Positions 689-51,534 of a stretch of 64,000 nt of DNA are shown here, piece by piece; positions within the stretch are counted from its first letter, which is position 1; every line of letters starts with the position of its first letter. The stretch lies in the IMG/VR virus record IMGVR_UViG_3300042549_008312, positions 1 to 64,000 of that record; one strand, 5' to 3'. The position numbers were made by a program, and so were the translations under genes. Under the pieces are notes generated by a model that was not told the origin of the DNA, did not search any database, and saw nothing but the letters and a program-made list of their open reading frames with translations. Source of the DNA: a virus.

Positions 689-1111
689 TTAAGCAAGTGT
701 TTTAGCAACTTCTCTGTTAATATCTCGTTCCTTGATACTCGCTCTTTTATCATGCAGTTTCTTACCACGAGCAAGAACAATTTCTATCTTAAAAAGACCA
801 CGTTCATTCTTAAAAATCTTATAAGGAACGATGGTGAGTCCTTTGACTAAATCCTTTTGTAACTTAACCAACTCCTTCTTCTTAAGCAACAACTTTCGAT
901 CTCTGGTTGGTTCGTGGCTATAAGCAGTACCGTTACCAGTTATGTTAATATTTTTAACATAAAGTTCATCACCAACAAAGACACAGAAAGCTTCGGTCAT
1001 TGATATCTTACCATCCTTAATCGACTTCACCTCTGACCCATGGAGTTGCATACCAGCGACCTCAGTCCTGATAAACTCATATTCAAACCTAGCTTTTTTA
1101 TTTACAAACAT
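689..1111 (-). CDS. smpB: SsrA-binding protein SmpB
   Basis: This 140-aa protein is slightly shorter than cellular SmpB (about 150-160). It shows the family landmarks in order: an N-terminal K(K)ARFEYEF strand, the AGMQLHGSEVKSI core (canonical GixLxGtEVKSl), an RDRKLLLKK segment, LARGKKLHDKR and KERD near the C-terminal tail. SmpB binds the tRNA-like domain of tmRNA and brings it to stalled ribosomes; the C-terminal tail occupies the empty mRNA channel. A tmRNA gene is present at 22325-22708, so the phage carries both halves of trans-translation. It overlaps nothing and lies 4 nt downstream of the 1116-1658 gene. Confidence 0.93.
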   Translation of the reverse strand: MFVNKKARFEYEFIRTEVAGMQLHGSEVKSIKDGKISMTEAFCVFVGDELYVKNINITGNGTAYSHEPTRDRKLLLKKKELVKLQKDLVKGLTIVPYKIFKNERGLFKIEIVLARGKKLHDKRASIKERDINREVAKTLA

Positions 1112-8727: not shown

Positions 8728-8979
8728 TTAAAAATAATCACAACACCAAATTGGTGTTTTTTCACCCACATACCCACCGTGGATATTGTAGTAATAATGC
8801 TCTAAAGCATCTTCTTCTGTCATCCCATCATCAATGATAAGGATGTCAATGATTTTACTCATGGAATAGATAAGTCTACCAGTTTGGTCATCATAACCTA
8901 TGATAGCCTCATCCAATCCATCAGCTTTTAAGAACTCATCCTCTGGATTCTGTTCTATTATTGTTTCTAGCATGCTCAT
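8728..8979 (-). CDS. Hypothetical acidic phage protein, 83 aa
   Basis: Start at ATG 8977-8979 overlaps the ligase stop (ATGA). The sequence contains IIGYDDQTGRLIYS and a DALEHYYYNIHGGY segment, a type of small acidic protein I associate with many large phages, function unknown. Translation probably coupled to the Rnl1-like gene. Confidence 0.65.
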   Translation of the reverse strand: MSMLETIIEQNPEDEFLKADGLDEAIIGYDDQTGRLIYSMSKIIDILIIDDGMTEEDALEHYYYNIHGGYVGEKTPIWCCDYF

Positions 8980-10046
8980 ATTTTTCTGTATTCTGGATAA
9001 ATTAAATCCCAAATTATTTTACTGTGATCTCTTTCGTCTAACATAGTGAACAACAAAGATGGGTGTTTGTACTGTAGAGCATATTGAGCAAAGGTTGCTC
9101 TATATTTTTCTTTTGGTACATTATGGTTTTCCAAACCTTTAACTATTGTATTAAAGATCCAAGTGTATTCTCTTTCAATCGTTTGGAACTGGGTGGTTAA
9201 CTCATCTACATAGACTCTTATCTTTGCGTGAAACTCATCAGGTACATCAACCAATGAAGCCATTAAATCTTCACCGTTGGCCAATGTTTCCCAGATGTTT
9301 CTTGTTGAGAAGTTTGTCATGATTTTGTGTAATCTAACATACTCCTCAAACTTGATCTTAACACGATAACCAGATGGGTAGAATCTGATTACAAATCCTT
9401 CTTTACCAGATTCATTTAAATTTTGGTATCTTTTAAATAAATCTTCAGTTAATGGGTCCATCGAAGTCCAAACAACATCCTCATAGTCTATACCAGAAGC
9501 TCTAAACATAGATTTTGCTGTCGCCCAATTCAACTCAAATTCAGGTGTTGTTGCACCAAGAAATGTTATCATCTCCTCACCGTAGTCAACAACAATCCTG
9601 TTCTCAGGATAAATGATCTCACATAAGTAAGTAACATTAGGAATAAAACGTTTTAAATCGTATTTTGATTTAAGAATCTCCAAACCTTTAACAGCTTGGT
9701 CGGATGTAAACGAACCCCTTGTTGCTAATAACCATTCACCGTTATAGTTAAATAAGATACCCAAAGAACCATCCATTTTTTCTTGGACATATACGTACTC
9801 ACTATCCCATGGAATAACATCCTTATCAATAACCTCTTCGTAGTTAAAGAACTTTGGAAATGGTTTAGCAATCACAGCACCAGAATCATCAGTGACAAGT
9901 CCACGGCATGCGATGGTAACCTCATCCCATAACATTTCGTACTGCACCTTTTCGCTGTAGTTCCAAATTGTCAATGGAAGAGTTGGGTGTGTTTGTTTGT
10001 ACAACAACCCATCTTCGTGATACTTGTTTAATGTTTCTAAGTTCAT
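8976..10046 (-). CDS. RNA ligase, T4 Rnl1-like
   Basis: 356 aa, near T4 Rnl1 length (374). Motif I EKMDGSLG puts the adenylated Lys at residue 90; further motifs include ATRGSF (motif III region), EGFVIRF (motif IV) and YRVKIKFEEY (motif V), with the family signature upstream (ACRGLV). T4 Rnl1 reseals tRNA broken in the anticodon loop by host anticodon nucleases. With kinase and phosphatases nearby this forms a complete heal-and-seal set. Confidence 0.92.
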   Translation of the reverse strand: MNLETLNKYHEDGLLYKQTHPTLPLTIWNYSEKVQYEMLWDEVTIACRGLVTDDSGAVIAKPFPKFFNYEEVIDKDVIPWDSEYVYVQEKMDGSLGILFNYNGEWLLATRGSFTSDQAVKGLEILKSKYDLKRFIPNVTYLCEIIYPENRIVVDYGEEMITFLGATTPEFELNWATAKSMFRASGIDYEDVVWTSMDPLTEDLFKRYQNLNESGKEGFVIRFYPSGYRVKIKFEEYVRLHKIMTNFSTRNIWETLANGEDLMASLVDVPDEFHAKIRVYVDELTTQFQTIEREYTWIFNTIVKGLENHNVPKEKYRATFAQYALQYKHPSLLFTMLDERDHSKIIWDLIYPEYRKI

Positions 10047-21569: not shown

Positions 21570-22034
21570 TTAAACAAGTTTTTCTTTATCTTTTTCAATT
21601 GTTTTTTTAGAGACCAGACCTCTACCGTATTTGGTTATACGTTCTTTGTATCTTTCTTTAACGTGTGGGCTAATTGGTATTGGTGTACCATCTTCATCAA
21701 TTCTAACAAATTTGATGTTGGTGTGGGTAACGATTTCCTGGTCACCTGTACGCACATTGTGTTTTCTAACTTCGATGTATAAGGACACTGATGTGTTACC
21801 AAACTCAATAACTTTACCGTAGATTTTAAGTAACGCATTAACCTTAACGGCTTTCTTAAAGATTAACTCATCGATCTTAATTGTAACAACCATTGGTGTG
21901 TCACAAATCTGTGCAGCGTATGCGGCCGAAGCGTCATCAATTAAACTCACTAATGTACCACCGAACATATTGTCGTGTACACCGATATCACCCTTCTTAC
22001 AAATGTAAGTCGTTATTAATTCCATCTGTTCCAT
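21570..22034 (-). CDS. Hotdog-fold acyl-CoA thioesterase-like protein
   Basis: 154 aa. The N-terminal part has DNMFGGTLVSLIDDASAAYA, the hotdog helix and catalytic Asp region of YciA/acyl-CoA thioesterases, followed by a long beta strand series ending GDQEIVTHTNIKFVRID. Such enzymes hydrolyse acyl-CoA or acyl-ACP. Unusual in a phage; possibly linked to the FabH-like gene at 27825. Overlaps the upstream gene by 38 nt. Confidence 0.75.
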   Translation of the reverse strand: MEQMELITTYICKKGDIGVHDNMFGGTLVSLIDDASAAYAAQICDTPMVVTIKIDELIFKKAVKVNALLKIYGKVIEFGNTSVSLYIEVRKHNVRTGDQEIVTHTNIKFVRIDEDGTPIPISPHVKERYKERITKYGRGLVSKKTIEKDKEKLV

Positions 22035-22281: not shown

Positions 22282-22324
22282 AATTAAAAAATTAGGGCGA
22301 TACCAAAATAATACCGCCAATTTG

Positions 22325-22708
22325 TGGAGATGAGGGGATTCGAACCCCTGTCTTGTCTAGCCATTAATTAACCCTCGTTCACATGCTTATTCAATTTTTC
22401 TAAACTGACAAACTTCACAATTCCCTTATTTTGACGGTTCGGTTTACTGAGAACTAATCTTCCGCTCGCTTATAAGATAGCGACACATCTTTTTGCAGTT
22501 TTGGGTGACTGTTGTTAGCCAAGCTTTCGCTTAGACTAATTCTAGATCTGCAAACTCAACAGACTGACCATTAAACGTGATGTTTCCGTCAGCATCGATA
22601 TAGCTTTCGCCATTTAAAACTGTATATAGGTTATTAAAGTGTTTCCAATACTAACACTGCATGCATCAAATTAAAGAACGTATCTATCAATCAATTCCAG
22701 TCATCCCC
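22325..22708 (-). ncRNA. ssrA: tmRNA (SsrA RNA), phage-encoded
   Basis: One-piece tmRNA, 384 nt. The ends form a 7-bp acceptor GGGGATG (22702-22708) with CATCTCC; T arm AGGGG-TTCGAAT-CCCCT; discriminator A; CCA not encoded (ACAA). A P2-type helix forms between CGTTC near the 5' end and GAACG near the 3' end. The tag frame lies at 22531-22611. tmRNA rescues stalled ribosomes with SmpB, which is encoded at 689-1111. It is expressed with tRNA-Leu from the box at 22817. Confidence 0.93.
22531..22611 (-). other. tmRNA tag-peptide frame, 26 residues
   Basis: Resume codon GGC at 22609-22611, stop TAA at 22531-22533. The tag begins GESYIDADGN and ends FADLELV. The GES start is like Bacteroidota tags (GE then polar residues, then Y), but it is much longer than the usual 9-10 residues and lacks the terminal LAA/AA proteolysis signal. 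Resume codon is inferred from Bacteroidota tags. Confidence 0.75.
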
Positions 22709-22715
22709 ATATTTA

Positions 22716-22802
22716 TGGTACCGAGGGCGGGACTCGAACCCGCACGAACGTAATGTCCAAGGGATTTTAAGTCCCTCGTGTCTACCATTCCACCACCTCG
22801 GC
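22716..22802 (-). tRNA. tRNA-Leu(UAA)
   Basis: Class II: acceptor GCCGAGG/CCTCGGT, anticodon arm with TAA in a CTTAAAA-type loop, T loop TTCGAGT, discriminator A, CCA encoded. It lies 7 nt upstream of ssrA. Confidence 0.94.
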
Positions 22803-24505: not shown

Positions 24506-25537
24506 TTACTTATTAAATCGTTTAAACGATGCTTCCGTTATCAGATTATATTTGGCACGTCCAATAAACTCACTAAGATTCTTTGCATCCGTATAACTCA
24601 TAGCTGATGTTAGATAATGTTTAAAGTTATCAACCCAACCATCTATAGTATATTCAACAGCATGCACCCTTACAACACCTTCAGATGTTTTAACGTCCGT
24701 CTTACCCCAACTTGCTTGCACCTCTTTGGTTGACATCCCTCTGAATTTCTTGTATAGTTTACCACCAGCTTTAAAAAATTCTTTTGCTTTTAAATTGTAC
24801 TGATTAATACGTTCACCATCCTCATCTACGGTATCACCAGCACTTTCCAGGGCTTTATTAAAGATTGAACCAAGCATTACATAGTCAGCACCAAGGGCCA
24901 ATGCTTTAATTACATCTGAATACTTTTTAAACCCACCGTCAGCAACAATTTGCGCTGGTTTTTCTAAAGTGCATGAAACTTTATATGTTTCAACAATCAA
25001 TGAGGCCATTGGATACCCGACACCTGTGTGTACAGTTGTTAAACAACCACCACCGTTTCCAATACCAATTCTAACATAGTCAGCACCAGCATCAGATAAT
25101 AAAGCGTATGTTTCTGGATTGGCAACATTACCAACCATCAATACCAATGAATCACCATATTTCTCCTTCGCTGTTCTGGTTAATTCGTGTACAGCTGGCA
25201 TATGGCCGTTTGCAACATCTAAAAGAATGTGATGTTTTGATTCTTTTGGTTGATCGTTCTTAATGAACACATCTTCGAATTGAGTAAGCCCATATGAAAT
25301 CCACTCACTAAAACTTGTCTTGGGATGTAAATCTGTATTGGCTGTTCTTGGTAAGATCACATTAATACATTGCTCTTTAAAATAATGAGCGTTGTGTATG
25401 TTCACAACTGTATCCATGGGCGCTGTGAATAAAGGTAATCCACCTTTATCATCAAAGGGGTATATTTCCGATCTGGAGTTAATTCTGGTTATTGCCGATG
25501 GCATTAACAACACATCATCAAAGTCAAATAAAGTCAT
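24506..25537 (-). CDS. IMP dehydrogenase / GMP reductase family protein
   Basis: 343 aa, GMP-reductase length, without CBS domains. FDDVLLMPS at the N-terminus, TAPMDTV, VGNVANPETY, the GIGNGGGCLTT loop carrying the catalytic Cys (about 168), VADGGFKKYSDVIKALALGA and YKKFRGMST. It acts in purine interconversion (IMP to XMP, or GMP to IMP). The loop is GNGGG instead of GPGS, so substrate choice is unclear. Transcribed alone, with a 24-nt leader from 25562. Confidence 0.88.
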   Translation of the reverse strand: MTLFDFDDVLLMPSAITRINSRSEIYPFDDKGGLPLFTAPMDTVVNIHNAHYFKEQCINVILPRTANTDLHPKTSFSEWISYGLTQFEDVFIKNDQPKESKHHILLDVANGHMPAVHELTRTAKEKYGDSLVLMVGNVANPETYALLSDAGADYVRIGIGNGGGCLTTVHTGVGYPMASLIVETYKVSCTLEKPAQIVADGGFKKYSDVIKALALGADYVMLGSIFNKALESAGDTVDEDGERINQYNLKAKEFFKAGGKLYKKFRGMSTKEVQASWGKTDVKTSEGVVRVHAVEYTIDGWVDNFKHYLTSAMSYTDAKNLSEFIGRAKYNLITEASFKRFNK

Positions 25538-27824: not shown

Positions 27825-28766
27825 TTATTTAACCCATTTCATTATAGTTGAACCCCAGGCCCAACCAGAACCAATCGCTGTGAATACGATGATATCACCT
27901 TTATTAATCTGATTATTCATAACAGCGTCATCTAATGCTATGGGTACCGATGCACCAGCAATGTTAGCGTATTTATGCATAACAGTTTTAACCTTTTCCA
28001 TTGGTAAACCAACTTCATCAGCAACTATTTTTAATATATTGATACTTGGTTGGTGTGGTATAAGCATATCAACTTCCTCAGCTTTAATATTTGATTTTTT
28101 AAGTACACTCTTTATCGATATTGGTAAAACCTTAATAGCTTGTTCCCAAACCTCTTTACCTCTCATTATGAAAGGTGCGTTAAGTGGCATGTTGAAACCA
28201 GTCATACCAGTGTCCTTACCATTTGCACTACTTTCAAATGACATCCAACCATCTTCATCATAACCCAAAACAATTGCACCAGCACCATCACCAAAAAATA
28301 CGGAGTGTTGGTTAGTCCAATCTGTATGTTTTGAGTAAGCTTCTGTTGCAATAATTAAAACGTTTTTATGTACCTTATGACTTATAAGTGGTATCATAAG
28401 ATTAATTGCGTAAACAAAACCAGAACAAACAGCGTTTATATCAAAAGCTGGTATATCTCTATCAATATTAAATTTATTGTGTATGATACATGCTGTTGAT
28501 GGTGATATTTTTTCTGGACTAGATGTTGCAACAATAATTAAATCAATACCATCAATTCCCATATTAGCCGACTCAAGCGCTTTTAAGGCAGCTTTATAAC
28601 CCATCTCGGATGGTGTTTCTTCGGCAACTCTTCTTTCATCAATACCAAGTTTATCTTTAACCCAAACATGTGTTGTATTAACAGTTTTTTCAAGGTCATG
28701 ATTAGTTACAATCTTATTAGGTAAATAAGAGCCAACACCTTTTATACTAACATTATTATAAATCAT
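27825..28766 (-). CDS. 3-oxoacyl-ACP synthase III (FabH)-like
   Basis: 313 aa, full KAS III length. Catalytic triad visible: Cys114 in NAVCSGF, His in LIPHQPSIN and Asn in KYANIAGAS. The C-terminus GSGWAWGS is family-like. FabH condenses acyl-CoA with malonyl-ACP, and homologues in surface-glycan clusters make acyl groups for amino-sugar decoration. Between two acyltransferase/aminotransferase genes and glycosyltransferases, the glycan role is the better guess. Confidence 0.88.
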   Translation of the reverse strand: MIYNNVSIKGVGSYLPNKIVTNHDLEKTVNTTHVWVKDKLGIDERRVAEETPSEMGYKAALKALESANMGIDGIDLIIVATSSPEKISPSTACIIHNKFNIDRDIPAFDINAVCSGFVYAINLMIPLISHKVHKNVLIIATEAYSKHTDWTNQHSVFFGDGAGAIVLGYDEDGWMSFESSANGKDTGMTGFNMPLNAPFIMRGKEVWEQAIKVLPISIKSVLKKSNIKAEEVDMLIPHQPSINILKIVADEVGLPMEKVKTVMHKYANIAGASVPIALDDAVMNNQINKGDIIVFTAIGSGWAWGSTIMKWVK

Positions 28767-31609: not shown

Positions 31610-31681
31610 CTGTGATGGGGAATTCCGAGATCCCGACCTGAGAGTTAACAGCTCCCTGCTCTACCTCTGAGCTACATCACA
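31610..31681 (-). tRNA. tRNA-Asn(GUU) with atypical T loop
   Basis: Acceptor TGTGATG/CATCACA, D arm GCTC-GAGC, anticodon arm GGGAG-CTGTTAA-CTCTC, discriminator G. The T arm reads GGGA-TCTCGGAAT-TCCC, without the TTCRA loop of the other tRNAs. Confidence 0.75.
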
Positions 31682-50136: not shown

Positions 50137-51534
50137 TTAAGCTGTTATGCAAGCATAACGTTCGCTATTCACTGTTTTGTTCATGATAGCAACTGGTGTG
50201 AAGTCGTCCCCTGCTAAAAGCGACTTTAAGATCGCTGGAGAGAATCCGCTTACCAGTGCAGTACCGTTTTTACCGAAGCTAACTGGTACGTTATCATGTC
50301 TGCTTTGAATGTTCCAGAACACAATTTTTGGGATTGTGTATCCAGCTTCGCTGTATTTATTTTCAATCATTTTGATAGCCGTTTCATTAGAACGAACAGC
50401 TTGATTGAATTCCATATCTGACATAATCAAGATAGTTGTTGGCATTTCTTCTTGTGGAAGAGAATGTTTAGTAGCTTGATCCAAAATCATTTTGAAAGTA
50501 GCTTCAAGATCTGTACTCATACCCCACTCAGCTCTTTCCAATTGTAGCATTCTGTCAACAATACTACCGTTTAAGTATTGCAACTGTGGGTTTGATGAGA
50601 ACGTAATGAAAGCATCTTTAAATTTACCCACGTTTCTTTCAGAGATATATAACCCCAAAGAAACACAAACATCCATACAAGAAAGATTTTGGTTGTTACC
50701 TGCTGGAGTGCTCATCGAACCCGATACATCACACACTGGTAAAATTCTTTCTTCAGTGTTTGTCAAATAGTTTGGAAGTGATTCCCATTGTTTAGTTCCA
50801 ACAACTTTGTCACCACCGTATCTCAACGACTTTAACACATCATATGGGTACAAAGCACCAGCCTTAATTGTTTTTGCGGTGTTTTTGAACTCATCAAATC
50901 TAACGCTATCGTTTTTAACAAACGCTTTAGTGTATCTTGACATAGCCAAAGATGGTACGTGGTTGTAAGTGATTTGTGACCACTGACCAGCACACATCAA
51001 CTGCTCAACAACTTTGGTTTTTTCTACCAATGATTTACGGTATTCTTTTGGGGATAAACCAAGATGTCTTTCCAAAGCAATTGCTTGCTTACCCTTTCTT
51101 GGCATCCATTTAGCACAAAGACCATCGTTGTTGTTTAAAGCAACCTCAATCAATCCCTTAGCTTGTCCTTCCAAAGGAGTACCAAATAATGACAACATGT
51201 CATCCCAACGACCAAACTCAGGGATATACTGAATATTCTTAGCCAAAGACTCAGAATGATTCTCAGCAAGATATTTAAGGATATCTCTAAATACTTTTCT
51301 TTCACCAGCACCAGAGCGTGCATCTCTAGCCCAAAAAAGAATTCTTAAAGCGGTTACAGGGTTTTCGTTAAAGGCTTTGCTATATTTAGCAATTAACCTG
51401 CCGACATCTTGACCACGCATTGCACCTATTACAAAGAATAAGTCAACACATGCATTCAAAGATGATGAATTAGTAACCATACCATTTTCTGTGGTGGTAT
51501 TTTCTGTTCTTAAAGCGTCAACGAAACGTGTCAT
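50137..51534 (-). CDS. DUF2828 / Ro60-like protein (helical repeats plus VWA)
   Basis: 465 aa. Residues about 25-240 are helical repeats with DUF2828 landmarks (ILFWARDARSGAGERKVF, IPEFGRWDDML, CAKWMPRKGK, LGLSPKEYRK). Residues about 262-465 are a von Willebrand A domain with MIDAS DVSGSMS near 268. The layout parallels Ro60/TROVE proteins, which ring-bind misfolded RNAs and Y RNAs. Promoter box TATATTTG with a 25-nt leader. A structured RNA follows immediately. Confidence 0.82.
   Translation of the reverse strand: MTRFVDALRTENTTTENGMVTNSSSLNACVDLFFVIGAMRGQDVGRLIAKYSKAFNENPVTALRILFWARDARSGAGERKVFRDILKYLAENHSESLAKNIQYIPEFGRWDDMLSLFGTPLEGQAKGLIEVALNNNDGLCAKWMPRKGKQAIALERHLGLSPKEYRKSLVEKTKVVEQLMCAGQWSQITYNHVPSLAMSRYTKAFVKNDSVRFDEFKNTAKTIKAGALYPYDVLKSLRYGGDKVVGTKQWESLPNYLTNTEERILPVCDVSGSMSTPAGNNQNLSCMDVCVSLGLYISERNVGKFKDAFITFSSNPQLQYLNGSIVDRMLQLERAEWGMSTDLEATFKMILDQATKHSLPQEEMPTTILIMSDMEFNQAVRSNETAIKMIENKYSEAGYTIPKIVFWNIQSRHDNVPVSFGKNGTALVSGFSPAILKSLLAGDDFTPVAIMNKTVNSERYACITA

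Follow-up and report, generated by a model that had tools for sequence, protein, structure and literature searches.

The window analyzed here is a 64,000-nt stretch of a 165.8-kb virus record (IMGVR_UViG_3300042549_008312). It carries a phage tmRNA (ssrA) gene whose long peptide tag does not have the usual AA end. This raises the question of what would become of the tagged products: whether they are degraded, and by which protease, or whether ribosomes are rescued while the tagged proteins survive. The coordinates of the features discussed below are collected in Table 1.

Identification of a full-length phage tmRNA

Comparison of the minus strand at 22322-22708 with the tmRNA model RF00023 revealed a match of 69.0 bits (E 8.7e-25; gathering score, 47 bits) that covers model positions 1 to 374 completely. 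This result confirms the phage tmRNA that a sequence-only reading of the window had proposed. The one-piece tmRNA is the sole full tmRNA found on the whole record. ARAGORN made no call for a tmRNA at 22325-22708. All seven pairs of the acceptor stem are formed, and G3:U70 and A73 are present, as they are in 28 of the 28 phage tmRNAs checked. The G3:U70 pair is the identity pair for alanyl-tRNA synthetase. The 7-bp acceptor stem, G3:U70, and A73 thus correspond to the predicted alanine-accepting tRNA-like domain of RF00023 tmRNAs; the SmpB partner gene (689-1111) and an A at position -4 followed by an in-frame tag and a stop (UAAAU/GGC...UAA) were also found. The bases 3' of A73 are CAA, and CCA must therefore be added to the tmRNA.

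Table 1. Features of the tmRNA locus and of the associated phage genes in the window
Feature	Position	Strand	Basis or remark
Phage tmRNA (ssrA)	22325..22708	-	G1 (5') to discriminator A73; CCA absent from gene
Acceptor-stem 3' strand CAUCUCC, carries U70	22326..22332	-	Acceptor-pair check
Candidate helix around tag stop, UUAGUC/GGCUAA, inner stem GAAA-capped	22515..22539	-	Inferred from sequence
Tag stop UAA	22531..22533	-	Read from sequence
Tag frame GESYIDADGNITFNGQSVEFADLELV	22534..22611	-	Purifying selection on the frame in seven GESY-type tmRNAs
UAAAU, sets the frame, directly 5' of the resume codon	22612..22616	-	U at -5, A at -4
tRNA-Leu (UAA)	22716..22802	-	ARAGORN and Rfam; 7 nt upstream of tmRNA
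SmpB, 140 aa, GKKLHDKR motif, IKERD tail	689..1111	-	PF01668, 149 bits, E 1.1e-43; TIGR00086
ClpP peptidase, full-length, 222 aa	47469..48137	-	PF00574, 263 bits, E 1.5e-78

The tRNA-Leu gene lies on the same strand as the tmRNA gene, and the spacing suggests that both are probably part of a shared transcript. The minimum-energy fold of the whole tmRNA gave a weakly informative z of -1.9, with pseudoknots outside the model. A nucleotide search of isolate phages returned short T-arm matches only. Within the 3' half of the tmRNA, a block of about 45 nt (TTAGTTCTCAGTAAACCGAACC...AATAAGGGAATTGTGAAGTTT) is nearly identical in three tmRNAs (L223, L224, and L232) despite quite different tags, which suggests an exchange of pseudoknot modules among the tmRNAs of phages.

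Several other genes of the window were recorded. The tmRNA is surrounded by host-like metabolic genes encoding a thioesterase (4HBT; 21570-22034), a GMP-reductase-like protein (24506-25537), and FabH (27825-28766). An extra tRNA (31610-31681; Rfam, 49 bits) was missed by ARAGORN. This tRNA-rich phage also encodes a T4 RNA ligase 1-like protein (8976-10046), possibly involved in tRNA repair, and an RNA-binding protein common to many large phages (50137-51534; phrog_850, for which annotated records give the name "RNA-binding protein" or DUF2828).

Resume codon and selection on the tag frame

The frame of a tmRNA is chosen mainly by an A at -4, with a U at -5 (PMC2481249). The U-A-A-A-U before GGC fits this rule, and therefore GGC was assigned as the resume codon and GESYIDADGNITFNGQSVEFADLELV as the tag. 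The codons GGC GAA AGC UAU ... GAA UUA GUC UAA (22611-22531) encode 26 residues. The sequence-only reading had given this tag exactly.

The frame was further examined in seven tmRNAs with a GESY-type tag (that of the phage included), in which the tag aligns gap-free and the frame is kept. The pN/pS ratio was 0.39 in the tag frame. The two alternative frames, interrupted by stops in nearly all seven sequences, gave ratios of 1.00 and 0.85. Shuffling of the alignment columns gave equally few amino acid states in 2 of 1,000 trials. Because of the low pN/pS ratio, the stops in the other frames, and the shuffling result, the tag is, as judged from this alignment, a translated and selected peptide. 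A mis-set tag frame is ruled out by the A at -4 together with the selection on the tag frame. The candidate helix around the tag stop agrees only in part with the minimum-energy fold. A direct pattern scan of viral contigs for the tag, whose 26 residues are too few for a locus search, gave no match.

Tag ends in related phages

Relatives were gathered by scans of viral contigs with the T-arm plus acceptor sequence and with neighboring genes. In 50 such records, RF00023 revealed 22 full-length tmRNAs, 21 above the cutoff and one at 41.6 bits. The seven GESY-type tags end in LELV (two), LELA, LEVA (two), YELA, and PAFA. The tags of the remaining relatives are quite different, with 21 to 30 residues and the ends VA, LAA, AAA, MAA, or ALV. 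A larger set of 29 phage tags also takes in Lak phages, Bacillus phage G, a Streptomyces phage, and a 735-kb phage whose candidate tmRNA (L309) is tentative, with 21 bits only. The last residue in this set is Ala in 26 tags and Val in 3 and is never charged or polar. The canonical AA end occurs in 9 of the 29 tags and in only 5 of the 23 tags from the phage and its relatives.

These comparisons modify the claim of a missing degradation end. The C-terminal LAA (or close AA end) of a ClpXP-type ssrA degron is indeed absent, since the tag ends in ELV, and a non-AA end is shared by siblings ending in LA, VA, FA, or LV. The claim is not supported in the sense of a nondegrading rescue tag, given the LAA, AAA, and MAA ends of other relatives and the Ala or Val at the end of 29 of 29 tags. 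The last Val codon (GTC) differs from Ala (GCC) by a single base, so LV is one change from LA, and this change would keep the flanking helix by converting C:G to U:G. The tag is thus best described, as far as its sequence can tell, as having a variant hydrophobic end rather than a demonstrably missing degradation end. Conservation of a small hydrophobic C terminus would be expected for a degron but not for a tail that is neutral or protective. The ends LVA, AAV, and ASV still lead to degradation of tagged proteins in E. coli, more slowly for AAV and ASV (PMC9097571; PMC9382460).

Non-AA tag ends were compared with the presence of clpC in the same records. The ratio was 11:1 against 7:4, which is suggestive, not significant (Fisher p = 0.15), and confounded by fragments and kinship.

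SmpB and ClpP encoded by the phage

The SmpB protein scored 154 bits against TIGR00086 (cutoff, 119). SmpB was found in 14 of the 50 related records, and the motif GKKx(H/Y)DK(R/K) is present in all 11 relatives whose SmpB C terminus was read. A genome scan with SmpB, meant to sample the tags of cellular Bacteroidota, gave matches in other phyla.

The phage ClpP invoked by the sequence-only reading does exist. The protein is full-length, aligns closely to solved ClpPs, and carries the catalytic triad of Ser (GLAASMA), His (MIHQP), and Asp (ERDYWM). It scored 360 bits against NCBIfam PRK14514 and 97 bits against the head-maturation model, and thus above head-protease models; the score is 1 bit below the PRK14514 cutoff and above the PRK00277 and PRK12553 cutoffs. 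PHROG hits had suggested a mere head-maturation protease, a reading rejected on the basis of the full-length ClpP matches. A shorter, separate ClpP-like protein of the type expected for head maturation occurs besides the full ClpP in three relatives (G001, G015, and G035). Full-length ClpP was present in 17 of the 50 related records, in one of them with an internal stop.

Clp ATPases and gene neighborhoods in related phages

A search for a Clp ATPase on the record of the phage, which has incomplete ends, found none. In two long relatives (G015 and G035), smpB, tmRNA, and clpP follow the same order as in the phage, and the Clp ATPase lies about 84 to 109 kb left of smpB. For circular genomes, this position would correspond to about 150 to 160 kb on the right side of clpP. 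Neither site is covered by the record of the phage, and the absence of the ATPase there therefore says little.

A strong AAA_2 Clp ATPase was found in 14 of the 38 related records searched. These ATPases combine AAA_2 and D2-small domains with a [VI]GF loop (VGY in one), and a UVR motif was seen in the two scanned with Pfam. The UVR motif and the [VI]GF ClpP-docking loop are marks of ClpC. A ClpC model was absent among the NCBIfam hits of these proteins, which are putatively ClpC-type. The tmRNA, SmpB, ClpP, and a ClpC-type ATPase occur together in five relatives (G015, G035, G045, G047, and G048), with the ATPase of G048 broken by an intein-like stretch. Intein- or homing-endonuclease-like insertions are apparent in the ClpC genes L355:4208-7921 (G012) and L368:1410-2582 (G048).

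In G008, G014, and G040, the tmRNA follows clpP on the same strand after 118, 123, and 786 bp, within a one-strand row of genes encoding DnaJ, a metallopeptidase-like protein, an ORF product, and ClpP. In L362, L363, and L364, DnaJ and a metallopeptidase-like phage protein share one row with a small ORF, ClpP, and the tmRNA, possibly a phage protein-quality operon. In G009, G012, G033, G039, G044, G047, and G050, the tmRNA shares a strand with clpC at a distance of 2.0 to 3.0 kb, and in G050, smpB is adjacent as well. Genes on the opposite strand separate clpC from the tmRNA in this group, and the two are therefore neighbors and not parts of one operon. One of the intervening opposite-strand genes is an ORF of 263 to 277 aa (L356:3633-4424 and its equivalents in L355 and L357-L361) with a weak likeness to M42/M28/M20/PepT peptidases, and its product might finish off Clp products.

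Two separate arrangements thus tie the tmRNA to a Clp protease, which is good but not conclusive evidence of a link. The chance of such a tmRNA-clp spacing in a single genome is 0.01 to 0.11, and relatives within a clade do not count as independent cases.

A proposed route from the phage tmRNA to proteolysis

We favor, with a probability of roughly 0.6, a phage-owned trans-translation system of tmRNA and SmpB that feeds a Clp protease containing the phage ClpP, with the long tag as the proteolysis signal. The phage tmRNA would work with the phage's own SmpB and would, as its acceptor stem suggests, be charged with alanine. The charged tmRNA would enter ribosomes stalled on broken messages during infection; translation would resume at GGC, add A-GESYIDADGNITFNGQSVEFADLELV to the stalled product, and end with release at UAA. 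The -LV end, a sister of -LA and -VA, may serve as a variant hydrophobic signal for degradation. A Clp protease including the phage ClpP would then read the tag, with either a phage ClpC or a host Clp ATPase as the presumed unfoldase; the phage ClpC, present in relatives, would lie beyond the partial record. The association of the tmRNA with clpP and clpC in relatives points towards proteolysis. Counting against this reading, smpB, tmRNA, and clpP are about 21 to 25 kb apart in the phage, and the phage ClpP could serve head maturation instead.

A tag that deliberately carries no degron, so that ribosomes are recycled and tagged proteins survive, would agree with the -ELV end without LAA and with the finding that ribosome release, not degradation, is the part that cell survival needs (PMC8012679). 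We consider this improbable: a small hydrophobic end is not expected to persist in a tag that drifts or protects, yet the last residue is always Ala or Val in the 29 tags, siblings end in LA, VA, or FA, other relatives in LAA, AAA, or MAA, and clp genes lie near related tmRNAs. The tag might instead be read by a host protease, either Clp (ClpXP or ClpCP) as a weakened host tag or Lon as a Mesoplasma-like tag, with the phage ClpP unrelated to it. The degradation retained by the E. coli LVA, AAV, and ASV variants is consistent with this explanation, as are the long M. florum tag, which ends in NYAFA and goes to Lon, and a sibling tag (L244) that ends in AFA. Since phage-borne ClpP and ClpC co-occur with the tmRNA and lie near it in relatives, we regard this explanation as unlikely, if somewhat more likely than a tag without a degron.

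A decaying or accidental copy, that is, a functionless relic of capture or only a decoy, could account for the failure of ARAGORN to recognize the tmRNA and for several broken consensus pairs in the RF00023 match. It is very improbable in view of the G3:U70 pair, A73, A at -4, and tag frame kept across diverged relatives, the compensating acceptor pairs, the pN/pS ratio of 0.39, and the retained SmpB.

The favored route to a Clp protease may tentatively be extended to a private, orthogonal pathway, in which the diverged tags of large Bacteroidota-type phages route products to phage ClpC-ClpP. Since non-AA ends showed no significant association with phage ClpC, a private degron is only a possibility, which we rate below even odds. 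If true, such a pathway would keep phage protein quality control, or the breakdown of host proteins into reusable amino acids, apart from host ClpXP and its adaptors. The tag and the phage Clp may offer a new degron-protease pair. One lineage with tmRNA, SmpB, and ClpP, whose relatives add a ClpC-type ATPase, makes the question of why phages keep a tmRNA directly testable.

Detection of phage tmRNAs and earlier surveys

Phage tmRNAs have been surveyed before (PMC9004378; PMC4131195; PMC11915505), and ARAGORN was used in two of the earlier studies on phage tmRNA. Among the 29 phage tmRNAs examined here, ARAGORN found 9 and missed 20, and at least three of its tags (L223, L229, and L230) were set wrongly. 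Surveys by ARAGORN alone thus miss most long-tag phage tmRNAs. A literature search that covered a minority of subscription papers returned none combining ClpP, tmRNA, SmpB, and phage genomes; the Clp linkage and the tag divergence provisionally look new.

Comparison with known systems

The phage tmRNA shares with bacterial one-piece tmRNAs (RF00023) the G3:U70 tRNA-like domain, the A at -4, the in-frame tag with stop, and the SmpB partner. It differs in being phage-borne with its own SmpB and in its 26-aa tag, which ends in LELV and not in LAA. The commonest tmRNA tag length is 10 (PMC11915505). The presence of tmRNA and SmpB in huge phages, and thus of both trans-translation parts on large phage genomes, was already reported by Al-Shayeb et al. 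in 2020, who used ARAGORN for tmRNA finding and mentioned neither Clp nor proteases in the main text (PMC7162821).

Among other phages, Flavobacterium phage immuto, which is the closest isolate when thioesterase genes are compared, gave no match for tmRNA, Clp ATPase, or ClpP. The tag of Streptomyces phage Sushi23 is of the canonical ALAA type, and this phage lacks Clp genes. In two independent lineages, the Lak phages and Bacillus phage G, tmRNA, ClpP, and Clp ATPase are all present. The one-piece tmRNAs of two Lak phages (L301 and L302), both missed by ARAGORN, encode the short tags DDEIDFRMAA and DDEIEFRMAA. In phage G (NC_023719; positions 187823-189357 and 412060-412371), ClpP lies next to a Clp ATPase and the tag, which reads NNELQVA when the frame is set from the A at -4, also ends in VA; unlike the phage studied here, phage G has a short tag, a Bacillus host, and another phage lineage.

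The E. coli ssrA variants LVA, AAV, and ASV likewise have small hydrophobic non-LAA ends that still direct degradation, but they are engineered, short, and read by E. coli proteases. The ssrA tag of Mesoplasma florum is, like the phage tag, long and without an LAA end, and it is matched to a particular protease, which is Lon and not Clp, in a cellular and not a phage system. By analogy, the M. florum pair may serve as a precedent for a long non-LAA tag with its own protease.
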